64,000 nt of DNA from Lignipirellula cremea. Its GTDB lineage: Bacteria; Planctomycetota; Planctomycetia; Pirellulales; Pirellulaceae. The position numbers were made by a program, and so were the translations under genes. The stretch's first letter is position 1. Each line of letters starts with the position of its first letter. The DNA lies in assembly GCF_007751035.1 (NCBI RefSeq), contig NZ_CP036433.1:5003001-5067000 (forward strand), written 5' to 3'. The notes beneath the pieces are model-generated. The model worked only from the letters and a program-made list of their open reading frames with translations, was not told the origin of the DNA and did not search any database. Of the stretch, positions 33,462 through 44,448 are shown piece after piece.

Positions 33462-36400
33462 TTAGTTTCGCACCGGTTCCGGCGGCGAATCAAAGGCGGC
33501 TTCGGCGGCCTGCTTCACAGGCGCGTCGATCGCCTTGCGGGCGGTCAGGCTGTAGAACTGGCCGTCGGTGACTTTGTCAGGCTGCAGTTCGCCGTCCGCT
33601 TTTTTCGCCGTGTCGTAGAAGTAGACGCCGCCGCTGCCAGCGACTTCGCCGACTTCGCCCTGTACGATCAGGGCGGTCGATTCGTCGATGCCGATGCCCA
33701 GCAGTTGCGGGTAGCGGGTGACCAGCGAGACCATATCGGGCTGGCGTTTCCGCTGCGAGAAATGCTGGTCGACCGCGGCGCCAGGCAGGAATCCCAGGCC
33801 GCGTTCGTAACCATCGGCCATGACGTCGAGGTTCCCCAGCGGGTTGCCGCGGGCGAGGTACTCGGCCTGGATCGAGGCGCCGGCCGAACTGCCCATGATG
33901 ACGCCGCCGCGCTTCAGGACATCGTGCATTAACTTCTCCGCAGGCGTGTCCAGGTAAGCGTCGACGAACCGCCATTGGCGACCGCCGCCGAACCAGAGTC
34001 CGGTCGCGTTCTTGAGGGCCGTCTGGTATTCGTCGCTTTGCACTTTTTCCAGGGTTCGTCCCGGCAGGACGGTCACGTTCGCGGCTCCCGCTTTGCGGAA
34101 CGCTTCGCTGATGCTGTCCCGTGCGGGAATCGGATCGGCCAAAGCAGTCGGCAGCACGACGATGTTCGCCTTCTTGCCGCCGGCGAGTTCGACAAAACGG
34201 GAGATGATATCTTTCGGCATCCCGCCGCCGCCGATGATGATAAGCGTCCCCTTGTCGACCTGGACGGGCCGCGGCTGCTGCGGAGGACGATTGCCGGTGA
34301 CGATATCGCGGGCCGCCCTGCGGAGCGAGACGAAGTCGGCCTGGTCTTCGCTGGTCGCCAGCACGATCTCCGCGGCCGCGGCGTTGTCGTCGCCCCGGCG
34401 TTTGATCCGCACGTCGCCTTCGCCGACTTTGGTCAGCAGGCGGCCGTTAATCACCAGCGCGGCAGCCGCGTCAAGTTCCAGGCCAATGGCGTAAGGCTGT
34501 CGCTCCAGGGCGGCGTCCAGTCGGGAGGGGCTTTCTTTGCCGACAGCGTGCGTGTCGACGATCGCGTCGGGCAGCAGGGCCAGGGTCGATTCGGCCAGGG
34601 CGGAAGAATCGGCGTCGACAAAGGCGAGCGACGCCAGGAACTCGCCTGCTTCGCCGGCGGCGCCGACGACCTTCCCTTGCGAAACGAACCGGGCCAGCGC
34701 TTGCTGGGCCGACTTGATGCTGGCGAGCGCTTTGAGCTGGGCCGCATCGTTACCGGCGATCCAGACGCCTGTCGCCTGCTGGAGCAGGGCGGGCCAGGTC
34801 TGGGCCGCGAGCTTCTTCGCATTGTCCAGCCGGACGACGCGGATCTCGCCAAGCTGGCCTTCGTTCCAGCGATCCAGCAGTTTCCGCGTGGCCGCCCTGG
34901 TCGCGTCGGAGCGATCCAGAGCGAGGAGAATCGCCTGTCCCGGGGCGTTGTTTTCTCCCTGGGCAAGCTGCAGGAAACGATCGACGGCGGCGTCCGACAG
35001 TTGGCTGCCGGCGACGACGAGCGAACCGCCGACGCCGACCGGATCGATCCGCGGCAGATCGTCAATTTTGACGACGACCGGGGCCGGACGGGGACGCTCG
35101 GGCAGGTCGACCACCGTCAAACGGGAAGGCAGCGGCTGGGTCGACTGGTGCAGCAGCCGCACTGATTCTTCCAGCAGAAACTTCGGATCTTTGAAAGGTT
35201 CGAAACCGATATCCTGCCAGCGGATCATTCCTTCGCCGTCGATCAGGAACGTGCCATGCAGGGGAACCTGTTCGAAGTCGTCGTAGACGCGATACGCTTT
35301 GAAAATGTCCAGCTCGCTGTTAGCCAGCAGCGGGATCGGCATGCCGCCTTCGTAGTCGTCGAGAGACGTTTTCAGTTCCTCTACGTTCTCGCAGCTGATC
35401 GCCAGCAGCGAGATGCCGGCCTGCTGGTATTTCTCCGCCAGCGGGGCAAAGGCATGCAACTGCTCCACACAGTGCAGGCAGGAGTAGCCCAGGTAAAAGA
35501 TCAGCACGACCGGCTTGCCCTGGTACTGGGCCAGCGAGACTTCCTTGCCGGTATGGTCTCTCAGCTTCCAGGAGGGCGCCGGACTGGGCGACCAGCGAAA
35601 GGGACCCAGGGCGTCCAGTTCGGGCCGTTTGCCAAAGTCGTCCGCCGGGGTCCGGGCAATTCGCCAGTCGCCGTCGGCAGAAGTCAGGCCCAGCTCCGCG
35701 GCGATCGGCGTCAGGCGATCAAAGACTTCGACGCCCAACTGGAGAGAGCCGGAAAGTTTCTGCAGGGCGACGAAGGCATCTTTCGCTTCTTTCTTTTTCC
35801 CGGCCTGCCAGAGCAGATCAATCTGCACGGCCAGCGGCAGCACCTGGTTCTCGCGCGATTTGACTTCGTCCGCGATTAGTTTCAGGGCTTCCTCTTTTTC
35901 TCCGGCCTGGAACTGCAGGCGGGCGAGGTAGCTTTTGTCGTCGTCCGCCTTTTTCAGCATGGTGAAGGCGGCTTTGAAGTCGCCGTATTCCGCCAGCAGG
36001 CGTCCTTCGATCAGGGCGATGCTGTCTTCGAGCGATTTGACCGGATCGGCGCCGATGGCTTTTTTCTGAACGGGAGGCTTCTTGCCTTCCTTCTTGGCCT
36101 TGGCGACGGCCTCCTCGTGTTTGCGCAGGTCTGCGGCTGCTTTGGCCTTGACCTTATCGAGCCGGGCCTGCAGGTCGGCGACGGTTTCTTTCACCTTGTC
36201 GACATGATGCAGATGGGCGAACGCGATCCCGCGATGTTCGAGCCGGCGGACCTGTTCCGTATCGGTGTCGGTCGGCTCCAGGTACGGCGAGTCGGTGTAA
36301 GCGATCAGGTCGCTCCACAGCTCATACTTCTTGAGCACTTCGAACAATCGCACGCGGCCATAGTAGGAACTGCGGCGGCGGCTGATGGTGTTGTGGCTGG

Positions 36401-37418
36401 GATGCCGCGGCAGCTCGATCATGTTTTTGGCCAGGTCGAGCCCGTCCTGCCAGCGGCCGACAAAGACCAGATCGCGAATCAGCCATTCATTGTTATGGGC
36501 GAAATTGTGGATCTCGTCCGGCAGCACCCGGTCGCGCATCATGTGGGCGTGGTCGGTGCGGGCAGACGCTTCCTGCTGCCAGGCGGCGTCTTCGTAGCGT
36601 TTCAGGCGGGAGTAAATGTGGCCCGGCATGTGCCACATGTGGGCGATGGCGGGAGTGCCTTCGCCCGATTTGGCGGACGAGTCCAGGGCGTTCTTGGCGT
36701 CCTTGCTGTCCCACAGATGAATGCGATAATGATGCACTGGATGCAGCGGTTCGATCGCCAGCACTTCCTTGAGCGCGGCGTCGACGTCTTCGTACGACTT
36801 GCCGGCGTTGCTGCGATTCTTGTAGAGCGTGTAACCCAGCCAGGCCTTGGCTTCGAGATCCTCCGGGTAGCGGGCGGCGATTTCCTCGAACGCTGCCACC
36901 TGGCGGATCGCCTTTTCTTTGGCGGAGCCTTTGCCGTTGAGGGAGTCTTCGAGCGCGTCGATGTACATCGCTTCCCGCTCGGTCGCATGGCCGCGGCGTG
37001 CGATTGCTTCTTCCAGGAATTTTTTGGCGCGGCTCGAGTTGCCCGAGTTGGCCATCGCCATGCCCCAGTAGCAGATGGCGCAGTCGGGATCGAGCATGGC
37101 GGCCTGGCGGAAGGAACGCTCGGCTTCGAAATACCAGAAGCCGTGCAGTTGGCCGATGCCCTGTTCAACAAACTTCTGCACGTCGGGATTGTCGGACGTC
37201 ACCGCAAAGCGGATTGGCCCGGTGCCTGCCATCGGATAGGCAGCCTGGCGGGCGCCTTCGTTAAAGGCTTCGCCATGCAGCGAGTGGCCTGCCTGGAGCT
37301 CTTGCTCTGCTTCGACAGCGGGGCCGCCCGGGGCGACGGACTCGGCGGCCGAGAGCGCGGGGGTGATCAGCAGAAGCAGGGCGACGAAGCGAGTTAGTTC
37401 GCGAAGGGTTTTCGCCAT
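33462..37418 (-). CDS. Secreted fusion: TPR, redoxin, inactive S51 and active S51 (cyanophycinase-like)
   Basis: From the ATG at 37418 the 1318-residue product has a signal peptide (1-24), a TPR-like helical region (about 75-560, with IAHMWHMPGHIYSRLKRYEDAA), and an AhpC/TSA-type redoxin domain (about 605-760) with C647-x-x-C650 in YSCLHC and HGTFLIDGEG. Two S51-type units follow. The first (about 798-1005) keeps DTHA (His957) but reads VVGAAGEAG where the nucleophile serine is expected. The second (about 1057-1270) has GSSAGAS with Ser1178 and DQHFSQRKR with the catalytic histidine. S51 enzymes include cyanophycinase and peptidase E. The upstream ATG 102 bases earlier would add an unlikely leader. 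Role unknown; a periplasmic redox-linked peptidase is inference. Confidence 0.88.
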   Translation of the reverse strand: MAKTLRELTRFVALLLLITPALSAAESVAPGGPAVEAEQELQAGHSLHGEAFNEGARQAAYPMAGTGPIRFAVTSDNPDVQKFVEQGIGQLHGFWYFEAERSFRQAAMLDPDCAICYWGMAMANSGNSSRAKKFLEEAIARRGHATEREAMYIDALEDSLNGKGSAKEKAIRQVAAFEEIAARYPEDLEAKAWLGYTLYKNRSNAGKSYEDVDAALKEVLAIEPLHPVHHYRIHLWDSKDAKNALDSSAKSGEGTPAIAHMWHMPGHIYSRLKRYEDAAWQQEASARTDHAHMMRDRVLPDEIHNFAHNNEWLIRDLVFVGRWQDGLDLAKNMIELPRHPSHNTISRRRSSYYGRVRLFEVLKKYELWSDLIAYTDSPYLEPTDTDTEQVRRLEHRGIAFAHLHHVDKVKETVADLQARLDKVKAKAAADLRKHEEAVAKAKKEGKKPPVQKKAIGADPVKSLEDSIALIEGRLLAEYGDFKAAFTMLKKADDDKSYLARLQFQAGEKEEALKLIADEVKSRENQVLPLAVQIDLLWQAGKKKEAKDAFVALQKLSGSLQLGVEVFDRLTPIAAELGLTSADGDWRIARTPADDFGKRPELDALGPFRWSPSPAPSWKLRDHTGKEVSLAQYQGKPVVLIFYLGYSCLHCVEQLHAFAPLAEKYQQAGISLLAISCENVEELKTSLDDYEGGMPIPLLANSELDIFKAYRVYDDFEQVPLHGTFLIDGEGMIRWQDIGFEPFKDPKFLLEESVRLLHQSTQPLPSRLTVVDLPERPRPAPVVVKIDDLPRIDPVGVGGSLVVAGSQLSDAAVDRFLQLAQGENNAPGQAILLALDRSDATRAATRKLLDRWNEGQLGEIRVVRLDNAKKLAAQTWPALLQQATGVWIAGNDAAQLKALASIKSAQQALARFVSQGKVVGAAGEAGEFLASLAFVDADSSALAESTLALLPDAIVDTHAVGKESPSRLDAALERQPYAIGLELDAAAALVINGRLLTKVGEGDVRIKRRGDDNAAAAEIVLATSEDQADFVSLRRAARDIVTGNRPPQQPRPVQVDKGTLIIIGGGGMPKDIISRFVELAGGKKANIVVLPTALADPIPARDSISEAFRKAGAANVTVLPGRTLEKVQSDEYQTALKNATGLWFGGGRQWRFVDAYLDTPAEKLMHDVLKRGGVIMGSSAGASIQAEYLARGNPLGNLDVMADGYERGLGFLPGAAVDQHFSQRKRQPDMVSLVTRYPQLLGIGIDESTALIVQGEVGEVAGSGGVYFYDTAKKADGELQPDKVTDGQFYSLTARKAIDAPVKQAAEAAFDSPPEPVRN

Positions 37419-42759: not shown

Positions 42760-44445
42760 CTACATGACGGCGAAGTAGTTCTCGACGGCGTAGTCGAAGC
42801 TTTCATTGCTTAGCCGCAACTCCATTCGCTCATACAGGCAATGGTTTTTCACCTGCAGCAGCAAGTCACGCGGCTGGCAACAGCGGAAAGGGCGGTTGCA
42901 GCTTTTGTAGTGCGTTTCCACCAGGTAGTCGACGGTCGCCGGGTTGTATTCAAAACCCATTTTCGGCGACATCACTTCGAACAGCTGGCGGAACTCTTCC
43001 TCGGAAGGATCGATGATTTCGATCTTGTAAGGAATACGCCGCAGGAACGCGTCGTCGACCAGGTCCCGGGGTTCCAGGTTGGTGGAAAATACGATCAGCT
43101 GGTCAAAAGGCGCCTGGATCTTTTTACCGTTGGACAGATTCAGGAAGTCGTAACGTTTTTCCAGGGGGACGATCCAGCGATTGAGCAGCTCGTCGACCCC
43201 CATTTTCTGGCGGCCGAAGTCATCGATCACGAGCGTGCCGCAGTTACTTTTGAGCTGCAGCGGGGCTTCGCTAATGTTGGTGGTGGGACTGGTGGTGATT
43301 TCCAGGCTGTCCATCGTGAGTTCGCCGCCGGCGATGATCGTCGGCCGGCGAATCCGCACCCAGCGCTGATCGATGCGCGTATCGTTGTAAATGCCGGCGC
43401 CGGGGGGCAGCGGGGCCAGTTCGTGGTTCATGGGATCGAACAGGCGGATAATCTGGCCGTCGACGCCAATGGCCCGGGGGACCCAGATCGCCGTGCCGAA
43501 ACAGGAAGTAATCCGTTCTGCGATGCTGGTTTTGCCGTTGCCCGGCGCGCCAAAAAGGAACATGCCGCGGCCTGAGTTGATGGCGGGACCCAGCCGGGAG
43601 AACATCTTCTTGTTAATCAGAAGGTCGGCGAAAGCCTGCTCCAGGTCGTCCTGGGTGGGATGCTGATTTTCGATGGACTGGGCCTTCACGCTGGCGATGT
43701 AATCGTCCAGCGAAACAGGAGCCGAGCCAAAGTAGGTGCAGTCGATCGTATAACGGCGTGCGCGTTCTCGACCAAACTCCGTCAGCTGACAAACGTAATC
43801 GTTCATCATGGCGGAGCCTTTATAGGCGAGCATTTGATCCTGCTTCAGCTGACGCAGTAACGGCTCGACCAGCATAAAGGGGAGCTTGACCTGGTCGGCA
43901 ATTTCTCGCCCGCTGGCGTCGCCCCGGGCGAGCAGGTATTTCATGACCAGCATTTCGACGTCGCTATCCGACAAACCCGCGGCGCGGAACGAGGTCGGTT
44001 CGGCTGGAACAAACGAATCCGGAATGGCGGTCGACGCCGGGGGCGACGGGTGGGCGGGCATGGGAGCCGTTGGCGCCAGTCCGGAATGGACGGCGGGCGT
44101 CCCCGCGAGGGGGGCCGTCGGGGCGTTTACCCCCTGTTCGCCGCCTGCGGAAGTCAGACGGTTGATCCGTTCCAGCAAGCTATCCAGACGGGCTTCGTCA
44201 GCGCGCTGGGGAGCCGGAGCCGCGGCTTCGCTTTCCGCGGACGGTTCGGCGGGAGCTTCGTCGACATATCGCTCGTCGAGGTGCTGATCCGAGGGTTCCG
44301 CCGCGGGAGCTTGTTCCGCCATGGCATCGGACGGGGAATCGGGCGCGCCAGACCGCGTCGTCAAAACGGACCATGCGGACGCGCCTTCTTTCCGCGCTCG
44401 ACCGGTCAGCTGGGCCAGCAAACTTTTCGGATTCTCGTTGGGCAT
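42760..44445 (-). CDS. AAA+ ATPase with winged-helix-like N-terminus, paralogue 1
   Basis: The ATG at 44445 is preferred over the GTG just before it because GAGGA is then correctly spaced, giving 561 residues. The N-terminal 130 residues are low complexity (Ala, Pro, Glu). A winged-helix-like segment follows (about 165-250; [36 protein letters not shown]), then the linker [15 protein letters not shown] and the AAA+ module: Walker [10 protein letters not shown] (about residue 299), Walker [10 protein letters not shown], sensor [23 protein letters not shown]. Its closest relative in the window is at 49534. Family members are known in planctomycetes but have no assigned role to my knowledge. Confidence 0.88.
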
Positions 44446-44448
44446 CAC

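Follow-up and report, generated by a model that had tools for sequence, protein, structure and literature searches.

The closest described systems to the protein analysed here are the cyanophycinases of MEROPS family S51. Their representative CphB (PDB 3en0, 7uqw) is a homodimer (PMC12661447). Extracellular cyanophycinases carrying Sec signals are also known (PMC3235067, PMC10206079), for example CphE from Pseudomonas, an exported S51 hydrolase of about 44 kDa without added parts. PMC3235067 cites Law 2009 for Arg183 as one of the residues that are critical to cyanophycinase, and states that CphE keeps this residue as Arg233. Peptidase E and the aspartyl dipeptidases (PDB 1fy2, 6a4r) share the S51 fold, but are single units and are more distant than the cyanophycinases in fold as well as in sequence. 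For proteins carrying two S51 units in tandem, no published description was found in a literature search that covered few subscription journals.

Here, a gene on the minus strand of the window, i.e., the whole stretch of 64,000 nucleotides of Lignipirellula cremea DNA that was analysed, encodes a protein of 1318 amino acids (33462..37418, ATG at position 37418; all features below lie on the same strand). In comparison to CphB, which resembles both S51 units in fold, the protein differs by its tandem arrangement, by one dead unit, by the replacement of Arg183 with Asp in the other, and by an N-terminal TPR-redoxin half with a signal-like segment. An earlier note had read the order TPR, redoxin, inactive S51 and active S51 from the letters alone; this order was borne out, with the TPR part being weak, and the motifs VVGAAGEAG (residues 917-925), DTH (955-957), Ser1178 and DQHF (1217-1220) are present as noted. 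Residues 1-25 (37344..37418) apparently resemble a Sec signal, judged by hydrophobicity, and the most hydrophobic 13-mer of the entire protein is found at residues 11-23 (FVALLLLITPALS); the protein is thus putatively exported, in which it would resemble CphE. A TPR-like helical region follows at about residues 60-600 (35619..37241), where matches to TPR_2, TPR_19 and TPR_8 are weak and stay under the gathering score of the Pfam/NCBIfam scan; this region is conserved in stand-alone relatives. An assembly artefact was ruled out, since G143 and G077 also have the fusion in one open reading frame and G053 has it truncated at a contig end. The architecture is real and unusual.

The C-terminal S51 unit (unit 2, residues 1055-1285, 33564..34256) is the predicted active one. 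It matches Peptidase_S51 (PF03575) at residues 1059-1255 (E 4e-23, 82.8 bits against a cut-off of 23.9), the NCBIfam cyanophycinase equivalog TIGR02069 at residues 1059-1282 (167 bits against 126.6) and 7uqv (E 3e-25), while the model of both units together (pLDDT 93.8, pTM 0.91) matches 3en0 with a Foldseek E of 9e-19. The alignment with CphB places Ser1178 (33885..33887) at the nucleophile Ser132 and predicts His1219 (33762..33764) and Glu1246 (33681..33683) as the catalytic histidine and acid. The Ser-His-Glu triad is complete, which supports the earlier prediction of an active unit. The equivalents of Gln101, Asp172, Gln173, Arg178 and Arg180 are kept as well, whereas Arg183 is replaced by Asp1228 (33735..33737), which leaves the cyanophycinase pocket incomplete. 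At this position Asp or Glu is present in every unit 2 examined, and the same holds for the arginine at the place of CphB Asp100, here Arg1147 (33978..33980).

The preceding unit (unit 1, residues 788-1046, 34281..35057) is reported as S51 by neither Pfam nor NCBIfam. A sequence comparison with this stretch alone picks up the Synechocystis cyanophycinase (7uqw, E 5e-4; 3en0, E 6.5e-4). Structure prediction, proposed by the earlier note as a check on this unit, recovered the S51 fold: the AlphaFold2 model (pLDDT 94) finds its best structure matches among cyanophycinases (Foldseek E 1.5e-12, TM 0.74), with 228 residues superposed on 7uqv at an rmsd of 2.5 (VIA Z 25.2), compared to a Z of about 18 for peptidase E. 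In the CphB alignment, Gly922 (34653..34655) takes the place of the nucleophile Ser132 and Ala984 (34467..34469) that of the catalytic Glu201, and the equivalents of Gln101, Gln173, Arg178 and Arg180 are missing, whereas Asp955, Arg966 and the catalytic histidine, His957 (34548..34550), are still present. As judged from the model, unit 1 has a genuine S51 fold from which two of the three triad residues are gone, in line with the S51 pseudo-enzyme proposed earlier; the loss of the acid and of the pocket residues had escaped the earlier note. The retained His957 of the DTH motif was ruled out as a meaningful remnant, since it is seen in one of 25 dead units, namely that of the window.

A search of 199 genomes of the class gave a match to some part of the protein in 158 and to the S51 half in 113, and 60 regions were read. 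In all 60, unit 2 keeps Ser, His and Glu and carries Asp or Glu at position 183. Unit 1 was readable in 58 sequences, the window included: 26 have a complete triad and also keep Gln101 and Arg183, and 32 are dead. A contig search with the single protein found no relatives, but one with alignment A1 did. Within 80 further loci, which partly overlap the first set and come from Planctomycetota and some sequences labelled Verrucomicrobia, Armatimonadetes or Actinomycetota, a table count gave 42 intact copies of unit 1, and unit 2 carries Asp or Glu183 throughout; in one locus (L160) the acid of unit 2 reads as Gly, which may be an alignment slip. The two-unit layout of the protein and its Asp/Glu183-type unit 2 recur in a group of uncharacterized tandem S51 proteins from Planctomycetota and from some Verrucomicrobiota. 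In contrast to the protein of the window, roughly half of these have a unit 1 that is intact and of the Arg183 type, and in nearly all of them the gene does not include the redoxin half. The earlier statement that S51 enzymes are normally single-domain was too simple: single-domain members do exist, but tandem ones are common in Planctomycetota. Homologs with both units intact had been named as a finding that would speak against a pseudo-enzyme, and they were looked for and found. This indicates that the dead state of unit 1 is derived; it does not make the unit 1 of the window active.

Two of these tandem proteins carry additional parts, one of 965 amino acids with Sortilin/BNR-type repeats at the C-terminus (L079:5542-8439) and one with about 540 additional N-terminal residues matching no Pfam family (L112:5797-8949).

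The tree of unit 2 requires at least 10 changes of the unit 1 state, and, as read from the alignments, catalysis of unit 1 is lost repeatedly. In a tree of single units, unit 2 and the single-domain S51 proteins of the Asp183 type form one clade (SH-aLRT 96) and the intact unit 1 sits among the S51 proteins of the Arg183 type, which suggests that the tandem protein joins two paralogue types. Dead copies of unit 1 remain in frame and are under purifying selection (dN/dS 0.10-0.41 in seven close pairs). What they conserve is not the active site: the 25 dead units retain Ser once, Gln101 never, His once and Glu four times, whereas Gly798, Gly992, Arg993, Gly999, Asp1028 and Arg1034 are kept in 24-25 of the 25. 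Most of these residues belong to the final strands and the final helix of the unit, outside the nucleophile elbow and the DQH loop.

Taken together, we somewhat favor the view that the protein is an exported serine hydrolase of the S51 family built as an intramolecular pseudo-dimer, in which unit 1 is a structural half and unit 2 a cyanophycinase-like hydrolase with altered specificity. Here, two diverged paralogues of the Arg183 and the Asp183 type would be joined in one chain in the manner of the cyanophycinase homodimer. Unit 1 of this lineage would no longer cleave and would act as a packing partner holding unit 2 in shape. The pTM of the tandem model together with the homodimer of CphB predicts that both units pack in a defined way, possibly through the face used by the CphB dimer. 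The retained scaffold residues, the low dN/dS and the scattered loss of the pocket fit such a structural role of unit 1 better than substrate binding. Against the pseudo-dimer stands that unit 1 evolves faster than unit 2 (41% and 70% identity, respectively, between the window and L063) and is reduced to a remnant in some relatives, as well as the occurrence of single-domain Asp183-type S51 proteins without a partner unit.

Examples of both situations were observed. Three proteins of 403-409 amino acids (L088, L093, L094) have a short remnant of unit 1 and an intact unit 2, suggesting that unit 1 is dispensable there, and seven single-domain S51 proteins (L239, L240, L241, L245, L248, L249, L250) carry the Asp183 signature of unit 2 and form its sister group.

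The alternative that survives best, although we regard it as rather unlikely, is the one put forward in the earlier note, namely a regulatory or substrate-binding role for unit 1 as a pseudo-enzyme. In this view, the unit would bind a substrate or a product and modulate unit 2. The persistence of the S51 fold and of Asp955, His957 and Arg966 in the window would fit to this, and tandem pairs of active and inactive enzymes occur elsewhere, as described for receptor phosphatases (PMC7320164). However, the pocket is lost lineage by lineage and in different ways, with Arg178 left in three and Arg180 in two of the 25 dead units, no new conserved pocket emerges, and the positions that are conserved are mostly not those of the nucleophile elbow or the DQH loop. 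Substrate binding by unit 1 is therefore a weaker reading than the pseudo-dimer.

Regarding the substrate, the pseudo-dimer would cleave a peptide or isopeptide outside the cytoplasm by means of unit 2, the specificity of which may have shifted away from cyanophycin by the single-residue changes of Arg183 to Asp and Asp100 to Arg. It is also conceivable, but in our view unlikely, that the protein is an extracellular cyanophycinase used to scavenge external cyanophycin or some similar isopeptide polymer. The TIGR02069 score above the cut-off, the known secreted cyanophycinases (PMC3235067) and the Asparaginase_2 (IaaA-type) genes elsewhere in the genome would agree with this. The earlier objection that the signal peptide speaks against a cytoplasmic polymer such as cyanophycin fails, because secreted cyanophycinases are known (PMC3235067, PMC10206079) and export is no argument against cyanophycin. 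The better case against it, judged from sequence, is the Asp of unit 2 at Arg183, a position reported as critical, together with a genome in which no cyanophycin synthetase (CphA) scores above the cut-off. Likewise, no IadA above the cut-off is present in the genome, and no isoaspartyl dipeptidase was found among the ten neighboring window proteins scanned. Since the live unit 2 is missing an arginine that is reportedly critical for cleaving cyanophycin, the database name cyanophycinase is probably wrong for the tandem protein.

Elsewhere in the window, a protein of 562 amino acids with a loop-like motif is encoded on the minus strand (42760-44448), which has no Pfam match at E 0.01.

The N-terminal half contains a redoxin domain of the AhpC/TSA type (residues 613-741, 35196..35582), which matches AhpC-TSA (E 7e-25, residues 613-734) and Redoxin (E 1e-12), the families of peroxiredoxin and ResA, and which differs from these by its fusion to the TPR-like and S51 parts. 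Although the domain match is that of a peroxiredoxin, the motif P-x-x-x-T/S-x-x-C is absent: the stretch LGYSCLHC aligns with the peroxiredoxin stretch FTFVC, with Cys at the place of Thr and Leu at the place of Pro. The CLHC motif (Cys647 and Cys650, 35469..35480) is conserved as CxHC in 38 of 38 aligned redoxin halves. With CxHC in place of the peroxiredoxin TxxC, a role as a disulfide enzyme is likelier for the redoxin half than one as a peroxidase.

Most relatives encode the redoxin half in a gene of its own, usually about 740-850 codons long, and it is mostly not linked to S51. At 10 loci from three clades, however, this gene immediately precedes the tandem S51 gene in the same orientation, at a distance of 3-115 nt, and no other recurrent direct downstream neighbor of the stand-alone genes was found. 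The four fused proteins form one clade in the unit 2 tree (100/95), the tree of the redoxin half recovers the same clade with matching inner order, and the clade covers two taxonomic families, f1 (G000, G143) and f13 (G053, G077). Monophyly in the trees of both halves makes a single fusion the simplest reading. The recurrent upstream adjacency and the matching trees also corroborate the earlier view that the redoxin and peptidase parts belong together.

Further genes were observed next to redoxin-half genes. In three related genomes the redoxin-half and tandem S51 genes are closely preceded by a gene for a protein of 766-862 amino acids (L117:2225-4813, L183:1-2301, L197:1-2328), for which the scan of L117 and L183 gave a weak CarboxypepD_reg match only; its recurrence suggests a three-gene unit. 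A DUF1028 gene (L069:11186-11965) immediately precedes the redoxin-half gene in L069, and L070 has this cluster as well.

A neutral origin of the fusion, in which unit 1 would be a remnant in decay and the redoxin part was joined by read-through from a neighboring gene without any joint function, appears improbable to us. Such an origin would be in line with the rarity of the fusion (seen in 2 of the family's 60 sampled genomes), with redoxin halves that are mostly unlinked to S51 and with the fast evolution of unit 1. On the contrary, the dN/dS of the dead units is far below 1 and shared residues are retained, the fusion has been kept in two taxonomic families with matching trees of its halves, and the adjacency recurs in other clades. 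The weakest reading, a redox-gated peptidase whose redoxin end toggles the S51 end through disulfides, one form of the link between cleavage and redox state supposed in the earlier note, draws on the fusion, the recurrent gene pair and the conserved CxHC and is highly improbable: the cysteines of the protein are residues 113, 116, 647, 650 and 676, none is counted within residues 677-1318, i.e., the S51 half, and fused relatives have 0-1 there, so that direct disulfide switching of the peptidase within the 1318-residue protein was ruled out and indirect conformational coupling alone remains.

For the pseudo-dimer, the TPR-redoxin half would instead be a functional partner, encoded by a separate upstream gene elsewhere and fused once in the ancestor of the clade. 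Its CLHC motif would most likely target other proteins or a common substrate, and would not act on the peptidase by disulfide exchange.

More tentatively, the S51 units of the Asp183 type may make up a peptidase subfamily of their own, with a new substrate that is probably found in the periplasm or outside the cell. They would work in fused heterodimers with an Arg183-type partner that has repeatedly turned non-catalytic, and in some lineages they would be coupled to a TPR-redoxin partner. The tandem proteins provide a natural and many-times-repeated series in which one half of a fused enzyme pair loses catalysis yet stays in the protein, and a comparison of live and dead versions makes the origin of pseudo-enzymes testable. 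Furthermore, a large group of proteins is automatically annotated as cyanophycinase, in which a residue reported as critical for this activity is replaced in every member examined.
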